This document shows positions 12,723 to 18,400 of a stretch of DNA of 64,000 bases, piece by piece (position 1 is the stretch's first letter; the number at the start of each line of letters is the position of its first letter). Location of the stretch: NCBI RefSeq assembly GCF_009708005.2, contig NZ_CP052757.1, positions 186,001 to 250,000 on the forward strand. Direction: 5' to 3'. The DNA comes from Cellulosimicrobium protaetiae (GTDB lineage Bacteria; Actinomycetota; Actinomycetes; Actinomycetales; Cellulomonadaceae). The notes under the pieces are model-generated. The model saw only the letters and a program-made list of their open reading frames with translations, did not search any database and was not told the origin of the DNA. The position numbers were made by a program, and so were the translations under genes.

Positions 12723-13595
12723 TCACCGCGCCAGGACCGCCTCGGCGGCGACGCGCTCGAGCTTGTGCGGGTTGGCGACCGCGAAGAGGTGCGTGATGCG
12801 GCCGCCATCGACGGTCACGGCGACCGCCGTGGCCAGCTCGCCGTCCAGCTCCAGCAGCAGCCCTGGCGCACCGTTCAGCCAGACCGTCGCCGCCGTGAGC
12901 ACGCCCGGGGTCTTGCGCACGCCGCCCACGAGGAACGCCGCGACCCGCTCGGCGCCGACGACCGGCTTGCGTGCCGCCCTGGCGAGGCCACCGCCGTCGG
13001 CCACGGCGATGACGTCGGGAGCGAGGACGTCGAGGAGGCCCTGGAGGTCGCCCGTGAGGACGGACGCGAGGAACCGTTCGACGACGCGCTCCTGCTCGGT
13101 CCGGTCGACCTGGACGCGCGGGCGCCGCGCGGCGACGTGGCCGCGCGCCCGGTGCGCCACCTGCCGCACGGCGGCCGGCGACTTGCCGACCGCCTCGGCG
13201 ATCTCGTCGAACGGCACGTCGAACACCTCGCGCAGCACGAAGACCGCGCGCTCGGTCGGGCCGAGCGTCTCGAGCACCGTGAGCATCGCCATCGAGACGC
13301 TCTCCGCGAGCTCGACGTCCTCGGCGACGTCCGGGCTGGTGAGCAGCGGCTCGGGCAGCCACTCCCCGACGTAGTCCTCCCGGCGCCGGGCCAGGGTCCG
13401 CAGCCGGTTGAGCGACTGCCGCGTGACGATCCGTACGAGGTACGCGCGGGCGTCCCGCACCTGCTCACGGTCGACGTCCGCCCACCGCAGCCACGTCTCC
13501 TGGACGACGTCCTCCGCGTCGGCGGCGGAGCCGAGCATCTCGTAGGCGACGGTGAAGAGCAGGCTGCGGTGGCGGACGAAGGGGTCGTCGCTCAT
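12723..13595 (-). CDS. sigJ: SigJ-type ECF sigma factor
   Basis: Encodes 290 residues. Region 2 is near residues 5-75 (LGSAADAEDVVQETWLRW), region 4 near 105-165 with the helix-turn-helix FDEIAEAVGKSPAAVRQ, and the C-terminal 120 residues form a SnoaL/NTF2-like domain (LDVLAPDVIAVADGGG) typical of SigJ/ECF41-like factors. In this class the C-terminal domain, rather than a separate anti-sigma factor, modulates activity. The start ATG overlaps the stop codon of the carboxymuconolactone decarboxylase gene by 4 nt. ECF41 factors are characteristically paired with such redox or decarboxylase-like genes, which fits the arrangement here. Confidence 0.92.
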   Translation of the reverse strand: MSDDPFVRHRSLLFTVAYEMLGSAADAEDVVQETWLRWADVDREQVRDARAYLVRIVTRQSLNRLRTLARRREDYVGEWLPEPLLTSPDVAEDVELAESVSMAMLTVLETLGPTERAVFVLREVFDVPFDEIAEAVGKSPAAVRQVAHRARGHVAARRPRVQVDRTEQERVVERFLASVLTGDLQGLLDVLAPDVIAVADGGGLARAARKPVVGAERVAAFLVGGVRKTPGVLTAATVWLNGAPGLLLELDGELATAVAVTVDGGRITHLFAVANPHKLERVAAEAVLAR

Positions 13596-14191
13596 GCGTC
13601 CGACCCTACGGCCGGAGCCGCCGCGAGCGACCGGGGCGCGAGCGGGGGCAGCCCGCACGACGCCGCGAAGTGCTCGGACCTGATGCCGAGCGCGATGTTG
13701 GAGCGTGCCGTGGCGTTCATCAGCCCGACACGGGCGGCGAGCTCGACGAGCCCGGCCGGCCCGAGGTCGTCGAGGAGCGCGGCGGACAGCTCGTCCGTCA
13801 CGGTCGGGGGCGTCTGGCACATCGCCTCCGCGTACTCCAGCACCCGCCGCTCGACGGGCGTGAACAGCGCCGACTCGCGCCAGCGAGGAACCTCGCGCGC
13901 CTTCACCTCGTCCAGCCCCTCGTTCCGGGACCGGAAGTAGTGCAGGTCGAGGCAGAACTCGCAGCCGATGGTCGCCGCGGACGCCATGGCCGCGAACGTC
14001 GCGAGGTTCGGGTCGAGCCGGTCCCACTTCTCGGACTTCCGCCCCACCCCCATGAGGTCCTTGAAGACCGCGGGGTGGTGCCAGAGCACGCCGATCGACT
14101 CCGGCACCTCGCCGAACATCGAGCGGGTCGCGCGCTTGACCAGGGAGCCGTAGAGCCCGGTGACCTCGGTAGGCGGCACTCGTGTCGTCAT
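13592..14191 (-). CDS. Carboxymuconolactone decarboxylase-family (AhpD-like) protein
   Basis: Encodes 199 residues of the AhpD/CMD fold. The CxxC redox pair and downstream histidine are in GCEFCLDLHYF (about residues 78-88), the signature of alkylhydroperoxidase-like members that reduce disulfide or peroxide substrates. The ATG at 14191 follows an AGGAGA ribosome site; a longer frame to 14254 has an Arg-rich N-terminus and is less likely. The gene is translationally coupled to sigJ (ATGA overlap), and co-expression with a sigma factor of this class suggests it is both target and partner in a redox response. Confidence 0.88.
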   Translation of the reverse strand: MTTRVPPTEVTGLYGSLVKRATRSMFGEVPESIGVLWHHPAVFKDLMGVGRKSEKWDRLDPNLATFAAMASAATIGCEFCLDLHYFRSRNEGLDEVKAREVPRWRESALFTPVERRVLEYAEAMCQTPPTVTDELSAALLDDLGPAGLVELAARVGLMNATARSNIALGIRSEHFAASCGLPPLAPRSLAAAPAVGSDA

Positions 14192-14281
14192 GTCTCCTCC
14201 TGCGTGTCTCGGTCGTCCCCGCGCCGCGCCGACGGGGTGTCGGGCATGAGACACCGACCGAGGTGCGGGTGTGACATGACG

Positions 14282-14338
14282 CCGAGAACGACATGGGTGC
14301 CGTTATCCCGTGGATAACGGCACCCATGTCGTGTTCGG
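14282..14338 (-). terminator. Long near-perfect palindromic hairpin after the symporter gene
   Basis: The inner 21-bp stem (14288-14308 with 14312-14332) is perfect around a 3-nt loop, and after one mismatch five more pairs extend it to about 27 bp. It contains a lower-GC core (GTTATCC/GGATAAC) unlike its surroundings. It lies 22 nt past the stop of the symporter gene, and no T tract follows. Confidence 0.65.
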
Positions 14339-14360
14339 GCGAGGAATCGCCTGGTCGGGG

Positions 14361-15881
14361 TCAGGCGGGGGCGCCTACCGGCTCCTTCTCGCCCGACGGC
14401 GTGGGCTTCGTGGTCTCGGCCGGTGCCGTGGCCTCGGTGGTCGCCTCGGACGACGCGTCGTCCTCGTCCACGAAGAGGTCCTCGGCCGTGGCGGCCTCGT
14501 ACTGCTCGAGGTCGAGGATGCCCTCGCGCTTGGCCACGATGGTCGGCACGAGCGCCTGGCCCGCGACGTTCACCGCGGTGCGGCCCATGTCGAGGATCGG
14601 GTCGATCGCGAGCAGCAGGCCGACGCCCGCGAGCGGCAGGCCCACGGTCGAGAGCGTGAGGGTCAGCATGACGATCGCGCCGGTGAGGCCCGCGGTCGCG
14701 GCGGAGCCGACGACGGACACGAACGCGATGAGCAGGTAGTCGGTGATCGACAGGTCGATGCCGAAGATCTGCGCGACGAAGATCGCCGAGATGGCCGGGT
14801 AGATCGAGGCGCAACCGTCCATCTTGGTGGTCGCGGCCAGCGGCACGGCGAACGACGCGTACTCGCTCGGGACACCGAGGTTGCGCTCGGTGACGCGCTG
14901 CGTCACGGGCAGCGTGCCGATCGAGGAGCGCGAGACGAACGCGAGCTGGATCGCGGGCCACGCGCCCTTGAAGTAGCTCGAGATCTTCAGACCGTTGGTG
15001 CGCAGCAGGATCGGGTAGACCACGAACAGCACGACCGCGAGGCCGACGTAGATCGCGACGGCGAACCACGCGAGCGACGCGAGCGACGTCCAGCCGTACG
15101 CCGCGATGGCGTAGCCGATGAGGCCGGCGGTGCCGATCGGCGCGAGGCGGATGATCCACCACAGGACCTTCTGCACGATCGCGAGCGCGGAGCGGTTGAA
15201 CGCGAGGAACGGGTCGGCCTTCTTGCCCGACTTGAGCGCGGCGATGCCGATGACGAGCGCGACGACGAGGATCTGGAGCACGTTGAAGCTCACCGACGTG
15301 CTGGCGCTCGCACCGGCGTCGGTCACCTCGACCTGCGTGCTCGCGCCGAGGCCCAGGACGTTGCCCGGGATGAGGCCGTTGAGGAAGTCGAGCCACGTGC
15401 CGGTGCGGCCCGGCTCGGACGCGGCGTCGAGCGAGACCGACGCGCGGTTGCCCGGCTGGAACAGCAGGCCCAGGCCGATGCCGACGGCCACGGAGATCGC
15501 GGCGGTGATGGCGAACCACAGGAGCGTCTGGCCGGCGAGGCGCGCGGCGTTGGTGACGGTGCGCAGGTTCGCGATCGACGCGACGATCGCTGTGAAGATC
15601 AGCGGCGGCACGACGGCCTTGAGCAGCGTGACGAACGACGAGCCGATGGTGTCGAGCGTGGTCGTCAGGCCGTTGGGGACCTCACCGGCCGCGTCCTGCG
15701 GGCCCATCGCGAGGGCGACGGCGCCGAGGCCGACGCCGACCGCGAGGCCGAGCAGGATCTGGACGCTGAACGAGGGGAACCGGCGCTTCTTCTTCGCGGG
15801 CGGCGTCGCGGACGACGCGTCGTCGGTCCGGTCGGTGGAGGTCGCCTGCGGCGAGGCGGCCTTCGAGGGTGTCGAGGACAC
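14361..15881 (-). CDS. Dicarboxylate/amino acid:cation symporter (DAACS), possible cystine importer
   Basis: Encodes 506 residues, with a Lys/Arg-rich cytoplasmic N-terminus (KKKRRF near residue 33), eight hydrophobic segments and two re-entrant loops, followed by an acidic tail. Family signatures are SRSSIGTLPVT (serine-rich HP1 loop), ATTKMDGCASIYPA (TM7, where DAACS usually has a NMDG-type motif) and the HP2/TM8 region SVVGSAATAGLTGAIVM. It couples import of an anionic or zwitterionic substrate to Na+ or H+. The GTG at 15881 has an AAAGGT ribosome site 6 nt upstream. A leader peptide gene ending in a Cys codon (16114-16197) and several stem-loops precede it, so cystine rather than a C4-dicarboxylate may be the substrate, as for TcyP of this family. 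Confidence 0.88.
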   Translation of the reverse strand: MSSTPSKAASPQATSTDRTDDASSATPPAKKKRRFPSFSVQILLGLAVGVGLGAVALAMGPQDAAGEVPNGLTTTLDTIGSSFVTLLKAVVPPLIFTAIVASIANLRTVTNAARLAGQTLLWFAITAAISVAVGIGLGLLFQPGNRASVSLDAASEPGRTGTWLDFLNGLIPGNVLGLGASTQVEVTDAGASASTSVSFNVLQILVVALVIGIAALKSGKKADPFLAFNRSALAIVQKVLWWIIRLAPIGTAGLIGYAIAAYGWTSLASLAWFAVAIYVGLAVVLFVVYPILLRTNGLKISSYFKGAWPAIQLAFVSRSSIGTLPVTQRVTERNLGVPSEYASFAVPLAATTKMDGCASIYPAISAIFVAQIFGIDLSITDYLLIAFVSVVGSAATAGLTGAIVMLTLTLSTVGLPLAGVGLLLAIDPILDMGRTAVNVAGQALVPTIVAKREGILDLEQYEAATAEDLFVDEDDASSEATTEATAPAETTKPTPSGEKEPVGAPA

Positions 15882-15901
15882 GGGTGACCTTTCGGGGTGT
15901 C

Positions 15902-16063
15902 GCGGGCGCACGAGCGCCCGCACTCGGGAGAGGGGCTCGGGACGTCGTCGCGGGGTGCCGGCAGCAGCGGACCCAGGCAGGCCGGCCGGACGACGAGAGG
16001 TCGTCCAGGAGGTCCTGACGGTGCGGGGCGCGCGGGTCAGCGGCTCAGGTCACGAGCGTGACC
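15902..16063 (-). promoter_or_regulatory. Candidate attenuator region between leader peptide and symporter
   Basis: Three short stem-loops lie in the leader RNA between the leader-peptide stop (16114) and the symporter start (15881): 16048-16063 (6-bp stem), 15988-16006 (7-bp stem) and 15902-15921 (perfect 8-bp GC stem, 4-nt loop, ending 21 nt before the GTG). Alternative pairing among them driven by ribosome stalling would fit transcription or translation attenuation. The stems are visible; their regulatory use is inferred from the leader peptide. Confidence 0.45.
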
Positions 16064-16113
16064 CGGGTCCTGACGAAGGCTGCGGAGGCGGAGGTGTCAG
16101 CGGCGACGGGGGG

Positions 16114-16197
16114 TCAGCGACACAGCGCGCTGGCGACTCGACGGAGGTCGACGTCGCGGCGCTGGGTGAGCTGCCAGGCAGGCACGCTGACGAACAC
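16114..16197 (-). CDS. Cysteine-type leader peptide upstream of the symporter
   Basis: A 27-codon reading frame starts at GTG 16197 with a GGGAG ribosome site 9 nt upstream and ends at TGA 16114. The C-terminal part, TQRRDVDLRRVASALCR, matches the pattern of actinobacterial putative leader peptides (LTRRRHVDL-RV-SA-CR), which sit in front of cysteine, sulfate and thiosulfate-related operons. The single Cys is the penultimate codon, as expected for ribosome stalling when charged Cys-tRNA is low. The next gene downstream is the DAACS symporter. No other role is likely for so short and conserved-looking a peptide. Confidence 0.78.
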   Translation of the reverse strand: MFVSVPAWQLTQRRDVDLRRVASALCR

Positions 16198-16261
16198 GAA
16201 GGTTCTCCCGGAACGGTGGGTTCTCGCTGAAACACGGGCAGACGGACGCCCGCGGCAACCG

Positions 16262-16267
16262 ATCATA
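16262..16267 (-). promoter_or_regulatory. Candidate -10 box of the leader-symporter transcript
   Basis: On the minus strand the hexamer TATGAT stands out in GC-rich sequence, about 65 nt upstream of the leader-peptide start codon. A good -35 at 17 nt is not evident, so this is a tentative promoter. Confidence 0.4.
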
Positions 16268-16347
16268 CCTGCTCGTACCCAACGACCCGCCCACGGCTCG
16301 GTATTCCCCTCGACCCACGCTCGCGCCGCGAGACGGCGACCACCGGC

Positions 16348-16406
16348 CGAGAGAGCGACGCCCAGCACCGATCTCAGGGGTCGGGATGCTGGGTGTCGCT
16401 CTCTCG
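16348..16406 (-). terminator. Long hairpin after the penicillin-binding protein gene
   Basis: Twenty-base arms (16348-16367, 16387-16406) pair with one G-T wobble; the 19-nt loop can form a further short stem. It begins 6 nt past the PBP stop codon, so it is the terminator of that gene and insulates the symporter promoter. Confidence 0.65.
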
Positions 16407-16411
16407 AGAGG

Positions 16412-18400
16412 TCAGGCGTTGGGTGCGTCGAGGAAGGCGTGCATCAGGGGGCCCGCGGTGACGGCGCCGCCCTCGCCCGTCTCGACGAACACGGCCACCG
16501 CGAGGTCGCCCTGGGTCGCGATCATCCACGCGTGCGACTGGCTGCCGTCGCCGTACTGCGCGGTCCCCGTCTTCGCGCCGGGCTCGCTCGGGAGGTCCTG
16601 GAGGATCGACGCCGATCCCTCGGTGACGACGGCGCGCATGAGGCCGCGCAGCGTCGCCGCCTCCTCCTCGGTGAGGGTCCCGGCGGGCTCCTCGTCGGCG
16701 ACGGTCTGCACGTCCGGGTGCACGAGGACGGGCGACACCGTGCGCCCGGCGGCGACGCTCGCCGCCACGGTCGCCATCGCGAGCGGCGAGGCCTGGACCT
16801 TGCCCTGCCCGATCATCGACGCCGCGTGCTCGGTGCCCTGCGCGTCGGTCGGCACGTCGCCGAGGAACGCGGGTGCCCCCAGCTCGGACTCGACACCGAG
16901 CCCGAGCGACGCCGCGGCGTCGTGCAGCGCCTGCTGCGTGACCGTGTCCCGCTGCCCGATCATCGCGGTGTTGCACGAGTTCGCGAACGCGGTGCGCAGT
17001 GGGACGTCGCCGAGCGCCGCCGTCGGGTACCCCGGGACGTTCTGGAACTCGCGACCCTCGACCGTGATCGTGGGCGGGCACGCGACGGTCGTGTCGGGCG
17101 TGAGCCCCGCGCGCAGCATCGCGAGGGTCGTCGCGACCTTGAACGTCGAGCCCGGCGCGTACTGGCCGGTCGTCGCGGTCGAGAGCCCCTCCCCCGCGGT
17201 CGAGCTCGCCGCGGCCAGCACCTCGCCCGTCGACGGCTGGATCGCGACGATCGCGCTCGGTCCCTGCCCCGCGAGCACCGCCTCGGCGGCCACCTGCATG
17301 TCGGGCCGGAGGGTCGTGCTCAGCGGGGTGCCGTCCACCGGGTCGACCGCGAAGACCTCGGTCGGCTCGCCCTCCGCACCCTCGCCCGGCACGATCTCGA
17401 TCGACAGGCCCGGGACGCCCCGGAGCTGCTCGTCGTACTGGCGCTGCAGACCGGAGAGCCCGACCTGGTCGCCCGCCGCGACCGCGCCCTCGGACTCCTC
17501 GACGATCTCGGCCGTCGCGTCCCCCACACGGCCGAGGATCGGTCGCGCGAACTCGCGCGTCGGCGCGAGCGGCATCTCGTCGTCGACCACGCGGACGCCG
17601 TCGACGGCCCGCGCCGCCTCCACGTCGACGCCCGCCGTGTCCTCCGTCCGGACGGTGATCGCCTCGACGAAGGCCTTCTCGCCCGCGCCGACGACGCGCT
17701 GCGCGTACTCCTCGGGGTCGAGGCCGACGACGCCGGCGAGGTCCCGTGCCGCCCGGTCCCACGCGCCCGAGGCCACCAGCGTCTTGTCGACGCCGATCCG
17801 GTAGACCGGGCGGTCCTGGACGATCGGGACGTCGGCGGCGCCGAGGATGCCCGCCCGCACGGCGGCGACCCGGTTCACGGCGATCCGGTCACCCTGGCCG
17901 AGCTCGGGGACGAGCACGTCCGGCTCCCACACGACGTCCCAGGCCCCGGGGCCCTCCTCGCCGCCGGACGCCTCCGCGAACGTCAGCTCCGCCGTCGTCG
18001 TGTACTCCCAGGCCTGCTCGCCCGCGACCTCCCAGGTGTAGGCGAGCGTCGCCGTCGCGCGGTCGCCCGCGTCGTCGCCCTCCTCGACCACGTCGACCGC
18101 CGAGACCTCGACCGTGCGCTCGAACGGTGCGAGCGGCTCGAGCACCGCCTCGAGGTGACCCTGGACGTCCTTCGCGGCGCCGTTGCGGAACTCCAGCCCG
18201 CTCACGTCGCCCGCCTCGATCGCCTGCGCGAGCGCGGCCGCCGCGTCCTTCGCCTCCGGCCGGTCGGGAGTGCACGCCGCGAGCGGCAGGGCGAGGACGG
18301 GCGCGAGCGCCGCGGCGCTCGCCCAGCGCACGCCCCGGCGCCGGAGGCGAGGGCGCCCCTGCCTGGTCGTCCGGCCGTGGTCGTGCGCGACGCTGCTCAC
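16412..18400 (-). CDS. Lipoprotein penicillin-binding protein (MecA-N-like, transpeptidase)
   Basis: Encodes 662 residues. A Tat-like Arg-rich N-terminus and lipobox LPLAAC (Cys43) anchor it outside the membrane. Residues about 50-165 form an NTF2-like MecA N-terminal domain, about 170-330 a dimerisation/linker region, and about 350-655 the transpeptidase. The three active-site motifs are visible: STFK (Ser418), SCN (475-477) and KTGT (610-613). It cross-links peptidoglycan stem peptides and should be inhibited by beta-lactams; the MecA-type N-terminus occurs both in low-affinity PBPs and in ordinary actinobacterial PBPs, so resistance cannot be inferred. The start is GTG. Confidence 0.9.
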   Translation of the reverse strand: MSSVAHDHGRTTRQGRPRLRRRGVRWASAAALAPVLALPLAACTPDRPEAKDAAAALAQAIEAGDVSGLEFRNGAAKDVQGHLEAVLEPLAPFERTVEVSAVDVVEEGDDAGDRATATLAYTWEVAGEQAWEYTTTAELTFAEASGGEEGPGAWDVVWEPDVLVPELGQGDRIAVNRVAAVRAGILGAADVPIVQDRPVYRIGVDKTLVASGAWDRAARDLAGVVGLDPEEYAQRVVGAGEKAFVEAITVRTEDTAGVDVEAARAVDGVRVVDDEMPLAPTREFARPILGRVGDATAEIVEESEGAVAAGDQVGLSGLQRQYDEQLRGVPGLSIEIVPGEGAEGEPTEVFAVDPVDGTPLSTTLRPDMQVAAEAVLAGQGPSAIVAIQPSTGEVLAAASSTAGEGLSTATTGQYAPGSTFKVATTLAMLRAGLTPDTTVACPPTITVEGREFQNVPGYPTAALGDVPLRTAFANSCNTAMIGQRDTVTQQALHDAAASLGLGVESELGAPAFLGDVPTDAQGTEHAASMIGQGKVQASPLAMATVAASVAAGRTVSPVLVHPDVQTVADEEPAGTLTEEEAATLRGLMRAVVTEGSASILQDLPSEPGAKTGTAQYGDGSQSHAWMIATQGDLAVAVFVETGEGGAVTAGPLMHAFLDAPNA

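Follow-up and report, generated by a model that had tools for sequence, protein, structure and literature searches.

On the minus strand of the window (the whole 64,000-nucleotide stretch of Cellulosimicrobium DNA that was analysed, from a source described as a soil actinobacterium), a short reading frame precedes a gene encoding a symporter of the DAACS (SDF) family (Table 1). The peptide encoded by this frame (window 16197-16114, minus strand) is VFVSVPAWQLTQRRDVDLRRVASALCR. On the same strand upstream lies the gene of a penicillin-binding protein (16412-18400) that has transpeptidase and dimerisation domains; its N-terminal match to MecA_N is weak and falls under the Pfam cut-off. Between this gene and the leader there is an inverted repeat (16348-16406) with 20-nt arms, 95% complementary and without a T run, which is probably the end of the upstream unit. 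Since the penicillin-binding protein gene is followed by this repeat and a -10-like hexamer precedes the leader, leader and symporter look like a separate unit. Elsewhere on this strand (12723-14191), the gene of a SigJ-type sigma factor, in which a SnoaL-like domain is weakly matched, adjoins a carboxymuconolactone decarboxylase (AhpD-like) gene.

Table 1. Features of the leader-symporter locus, in window positions
Feature	Position	Strand	Remarks
DAACS (SDF) symporter, 506 aa	14361..15881	minus	GTG start at 15881; proposed cystine importer
Symporter Shine-Dalgarno GAAAGG	15888..15893	minus	precedes GTG 15881
Spacer, leader stop to symporter start	15882..16113	minus	232 nt, C-rich
Hairpin GCGGGCGC-TCGT-GCGCCCGC	15902..15921	minus	single clear hairpin; kept mainly in the C. 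cellulans subgroup
Leader peptide ORF	16114..16197	minus	27 codons, GTG start, TGA stop, C-terminal RVASALCR
UGU codon of the sole cysteine, core position 17	16120..16122	minus	proposed stalling and sensing codon
Leader Shine-Dalgarno GGGAG	16205..16209	minus	leader GTG 8 nt behind GGGAG
-10-like hexamer TATGAT	16262..16267	minus	70 nt upstream of leader

The signals of the leader recur in its relatives: GGGAG was found upstream of it in all 14 Cellulosimicrobium rows compared, and TANGAT in 14 of 14 as well, 69 to 80 nt upstream of the leader; a sigma-70 scan gave no consensus pair. In most Cellulosimicrobium rows, the hexamer is followed by a GCGGGC...GCCCGC inverted repeat (window 16197-16300; L006-L040), which would therefore sit close to where the leader RNA begins. 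The leader matched the NCBIfam family NF042934.1 ("putative leader peptide") with 30.5 bits, over the cut-off of 27, and with 28.9 bits in a search of the whole genome, where it was still marked as over the cut-off and was the only such match; it scored under the cut-offs of NF042933 and NF042936. It holds one cysteine codon and not the run of them expected of cysteine-responsive attenuators; many NF042934 members likewise carry only one or two. The original prediction of a 27-codon frame with a ribosome site and the ending RVASALCR is borne out by its start and stop codons, GGGAG, the family match and the in-frame selection described below.

The family is widespread in the class. In a class-wide sample, NF042934 matched at E ≤0.001 in 171 of 246 genomes and over its cut-off in 151, and it matched none of 14 control genomes, E. 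coli included; a phylum-wide sample overlapping this one held 19 genomes with a match, the single one from outside the class being weak and not leader-like. We retrieved 90 leader loci, with a preference for high scores, and examined the longest open reading frame behind each, some of which may be wrong picks. The matches of these 90 were to Rhodanese (38), nitrite/sulfite reductase (10), PALP (9), PAPS reductase (4), POR (4), luciferase-type monooxygenase (3), sulfatase (2), APS kinase (2), and NMT1 (2), with one cysteine dioxygenase and one SDF symporter. Ten representatives were named by NCBIfam, among them cysteine synthase (a PALP representative), PAPS reductase, sulfite/nitrite reductase, a sulfonate-binding protein, and a sulfatase; one was a ROK regulator and one a 2-oxoacid oxidoreductase. 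NF042934 leaders elsewhere thus mostly front sulfur genes, and the leader pattern that had been recognised at this locus as one otherwise standing ahead of sulfur assimilation genes holds, both by its family score and by the sulfur and cysteine genes behind the family. Candidate cysteine leaders were described for mycobacterial cys operons in 2005 (PMC1262725), were observed by ribosome profiling in 2015 (PMC4633059), and are reported to be cysteine-responsive attenuators (Canestrari 2020, as cited in PMC9031893 and PMC13236596).

The linkage of leader and symporter extends over many genera. Loci were sampled by symporter similarity, which is no census; 110 were fetched, and merging near-identical upstream stretches left 101 distinct ones. 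A leader scoring at least 35 was present at 55 of these 101, compared with only 5 of 2,020 dinucleotide shuffles; no reverse strand came higher than 31, and the best of 75 control windows taken further upstream scored 29. The scan required 18 residues, and leaders ending on the cysteine, which lay outside its reach, were added separately: three more had cysteine as their last residue (L064, L067, L074), raising the total to 58 of 101 loci. In a further family, of which 50 loci were fetched from 72 genomes with a match, the leader occurred at 32 loci with scores of at least 38 under a consensus fitted to that family, where 500 shuffles peaked at 29. Conservation of the leader and of the gene order in relatives, the check proposed with the original prediction, was accordingly found at both sets of loci; many symporter relatives, including all Pseudomonadota rows, had no detectable leader. 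A tryptophan two residues ahead of the core was considered as a mark of symporter leaders, being present in 43 of 55 of them versus 1 of 85 others, and was rejected: none of the 32 further-family leaders has it, so it is lineage-bound.

Among 15 near relatives, column conservation was 94% in the leader and 73% in the spacer. In these relatives, frame 0 of the leader had a dN/dS ratio of 0.36, and the two remaining frames gave 1.59 and 2.16; over 44 distinct cores it was 0.48 in frame against 1.36 and 1.25. These ratios indicate that the leader is under selection at the level of the peptide; with its ribosome site and its family match, they mark the leader as real.

The symporter matched PF00375 with 326.7 bits (E = 2.6e-97), in agreement with its earlier assignment to the DAACS family, and no second gene matching PF00375 was found in the genome. 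Its nearest named relatives are from Cellulosimicrobium. Over the whole length it shares 30% identity with E. coli TcyP (YdjN), 30% with GltP, and 27% with DctA. In a tree of 63 rows it fell within a clade of 45 rows (support 100/99). Six TcyP-like rows formed a group of their own, also at 100/99, and the GltP/DctA group was likewise separate, so that the symporter is not inside the TcyP clade; branches are long and the deep order is unsure, and union of the symporter clade with TcyP was not rejected (p-AU = 0.219). A stretch that we take to correspond to the NMDGT motif of GltPh reads DGCA(S/A)(I/V)YPA in 45 of 45 rows of the clade and NGCAG(L/I)YPA in 6 of 6 TcyP-like rows. The shared GCAxxYPA, together with an identical one-residue insertion, was present in all 45 and all 6 of these rows and in none of 12 others, which comprised glutamate, aspartate, dicarboxylate, serine, and unnamed carriers. 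The symporter thus has the DAACS family, the insertion, and the motif in common with TcyP, and differs from it in its low identity, its separate clade, and its leader, a family not found in the E. coli control genome. The claim that the leader gives a substrate prediction which the protein sequence does not is not supported as worded, since with a TcyP-type motif the protein itself speaks for cystine.

A third sign came from twelve genomes that we would assign to a Corynebacterium-like genus (L375-L386), one genus of the further family, each with a symporter of the clade. The palindrome TAGAC-N6-GTCTA, presumably the site of McbR, preceded the symporter with at most one mismatch in 8 of the 12 (4 exact), where shuffled sequences gave means of 0.2 and 0.0, respectively, and it was found with at most one mismatch at none of 38 other symporter loci. 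A leader search at the 8 operator-bearing loci found none; a ninth locus (L385) had a site with two mismatches. Of the 12 loci, one had a clear leader (L381), one a likely leader (L378), and one a doubtful leader (L382), and none of these three carried a site with at most one mismatch. This loss of the leader and gain of an McbR-type site is a clear example of two unrelated devices serving one regulatory need. In C. glutamicum, the symporter cg2810 of the same family is under sulfur control as part of the regulons of McbR and CysR, and a role in low-affinity transport of cysteine/cystine was suggested for it in 2008 (PMC2580772); its control is exerted by repressor proteins and not by a leader, unlike that proposed for the gene studied here, and it is probably a member of this clade. 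CysR represses cg2810 when sulfur is lacking (PMC2580772), which does not amount to a plain induction by hunger.

Two independent lines, the TcyP-type protein motif and the McbR-type operators, support by sequence comparison a cyst(e)ine importer. The part of the original prediction naming a cystine importer is strengthened by these lines and by the leader linkage across genera, and is tempered by an identity to TcyP that is only 30%, equal to that with GltP, and by the separate clade. We consider it probable that the leader belongs to the actinobacterial family of cysteine leader peptides and lets cysteine control a DAACS symporter that most likely imports cystine (cyst(e)ine). This draws on the leader, its linkage with the symporter, the peptide-level selection, the UGU bias described below, the TcyP-type motif, and the operator replacement, all of which were observed; cysteine sensing, the direction of control, the substrate, and the type of read-out are what we infer from them. 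A large clade of symporters, annotated automatically as carriers of dicarboxylates or amino acids, would thereby gain cystine as a testable substrate from three independent signs (leader, motif, and operator).

The leader could also be a true cysteine sensor in front of a symporter carrying another sulfur compound or acidic amino acid, such as S-sulfocysteine, cysteate, or cysteine sulfinate. This is consistent with the annotation of E. coli TcyP as a cystine/sulfocysteine:cation symporter, with the sulfonate and sulfate-ester genes behind other leaders, and with the arginine of DMGRT, the residue that binds the carboxylate in GltPh, being kept in the symporter; the TcyP-type motif and the proposal for cg2810 point instead to cyst(e)ine, and we regard another substrate as improbable. 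We give less weight still to a conserved small frame without control, linked by chance or having another role, ahead of an ordinary glutamate or C4-dicarboxylate carrier. The best NCBIfam names of the symporter, DctA and GltP, both below their cut-offs, and the lack of an adjacent sulfur gene in the window would fit it, and it is opposed by the recurrence of the leader-symporter linkage in many genera, by the sulfur genes behind the rest of the leader family, and by the motif and the operators.

Within the leader, the codon of the conserved cysteine is nearly fixed. At core position 17, cysteine was encoded by TGT in 140 of 140 discovery leaders (55 from symporter loci and 85 others), and in 148 of 148 when leaders ending on the cysteine were included (5 of the 90 discovery loci, L157, L166, L177, L180, and L183, and the 3 from symporter loci), where the background was 9 TGT among 184 cysteine codons. 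The remaining cysteine codons of the 85 family leaders were TGC in 125 cases and TGT in 35 (Fisher test, P = 9e-38). The leader sequences are related and not independent, so that the UGU statistics overstate the odds, but in this same set codons 16 and 18 change freely. The second-strongest codon bias in the leaders, AGC at position 14, was 0.91 versus 0.19, and nothing else came near. In a held-out set with weaker profile scores (48 rows, less 2 duplicates, L323 and L324, and 1 weak row, L243), position 17 was a cysteine in 40 of 45 leaders, with TGT in 37 and TGC in 3 (L298, L240, L242); the others had glycine (L308, L316) or a stop (L311, L312, L313). Other cysteine codons of the held-out leaders, counted over all 48 rows, were TGC 39 times and TGT 18 times. 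In the further family the codon was TGT in 32 of 32 leaders, one of which (L345) is the locus of L173 again. One symporter locus (L086) had a leader-like frame with tryptophan replacing the cysteine.

The genome has two tRNA-Cys genes, both with the anticodon GCA, and none with ACA among 51 tRNA matches. With only the GCA form present, UGU would be read by wobble, and with a single cysteine isoacceptor its use differs from the known choice between isoacceptors. An almost always retained UGU at the conserved leader cysteine, against the TGC preference of the genomes, appears to be newly noted here; no mention of it was found in the literature searched, the key leader-peptide paper lying outside that search. 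A tentative reading, to which we give slightly less than even weight, is that one fixed, deliberately slow UGU, read by wobble by tRNA-Cys(GCA), is the pausing site of the actinobacterial cysteine sensor, where other leader cysteines may be UGC, and that this sensor came to stand before genes of sulfur assimilation and, across many genera, before a cystine importer, being exchanged for a repressor site in some Corynebacterium-like lineages. The bias turns the general idea of ribosome pausing at cysteine codons into a single-codon experiment.

The UGU might instead be fixed by an RNA element and not by decoding, as U76 and G77 are paired inside the leader when the near relatives are folded to a consensus. 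The neighbouring bases and codons vary (codon 16 was CTG in 44, CTC in 33, ATC in 11, and TGC in 10 of 140). A leader hairpin tried as a conserved element had only a weak advantage over synonymous shuffles (mean z, -0.71 over 55 and -0.25 over 43), and a pairing of leader GUGUCGC with GCGACAC beside the symporter ribosome site, perfect in the window, is lost in relatives. Both were rejected, and we hold a structural role of the codon to be unlikely.

The kind of leader is already known, and what sets this case apart is the symporter target and the one-codon form. With NF042934, NF042933 (Ms5788A), and NF042936 (Ms4527A), and with the mycobacterial polycysteine leaders, it shares the C-terminal pattern and the position of a short frame before a gene that is linked to sulfur, here probably so; it has one cysteine codon in place of several, its target is a transporter, and it has its own Shine-Dalgarno sequence, whereas the mycobacterial leaders are called leaderless. 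The uORFC-8-2 motif before cysS of Rhodobacterales is likewise a leader with cysteine codons for which ribosome-mediated attenuation was proposed, but it has two tandem cysteine codons, UGC being dominant, and an intrinsic terminator (PMC8632094).

According to the mechanism that we favour, transcription would begin at a start belonging to the leader itself, which is then translated. A shortage of charged tRNA-Cys would make the ribosome pause at the single UGU near the leader end and alter the RNA, or the access of a factor behind it, and the symporter would be expressed; with ample cysteine the ribosome would leave and expression would be held down. Between a ribosome paused at UGU and the stop codon of the leader there would be 0 to about 20 codons. 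The distance from UGU to the symporter start is 241 nt in the window and 54 to 347 nt at the loci where the start could be assigned.

The RNA between leader and symporter gave few conserved structures. Of the three stem-loops originally proposed there, one clear hairpin was recovered (Table 1); the three are not kept together in relatives, and a search of 14200-16500 detected none of the terminator-like sites that the classical terminator-attenuator model would require. An Rfam search brought no family to its gathering score. A long-range helix, joining bases behind the leader stop to those 63 to 71 nt before the symporter start, was formed in 14 of 15 near relatives; pairing was seen in 94.4% of cells, 2 of the 6 pairs had changed on both sides, and none of 500 shuffles reached its covariation score. 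Its signal was absent from 38 loci at large (mean z, 0.29), and beyond the genus no conserved RNA switch could be found. This helix is therefore a candidate part of the switch at the level of the genus.

As for the read-out, our first choice is an unmasking of the symporter ribosome site, preferred because distances of 54 to 101 nt leave little room for a terminator, because the window has none, and because translation attenuation is reported for mycobacterial leaders. In another reading, a serious rival although we find it somewhat unlikely, the C-rich spacer, once freed, would allow Rho to terminate transcription as long as its start is not covered by a stalled ribosome. The lack of an intrinsic terminator in the window agrees with this, as does the composition of the spacers, C outnumbering G in all 39 that were measured (mean skew, 0.27, versus -0.02 upstream of leaders), and Rho was raised in 2005 for Mycobacterium cys leaders (PMC1262725), although work on mycobacterial leaders is cited as translation attenuation. 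In the 60 nt before the ribosome site, a fairer control, leaderless relatives are C-rich too (skew, 0.175, compared with 0.291 at loci with a leader; P = 0.067), and the C-rich spacer, strong as a Rho signature against far controls, was set aside as weak against this one. Four Nocardioides loci (L065, L084, L087, L094) have the symporter ribosome site inside an inverted repeat (GAAAGGTTACCTTTTC or similar), which could hide it.
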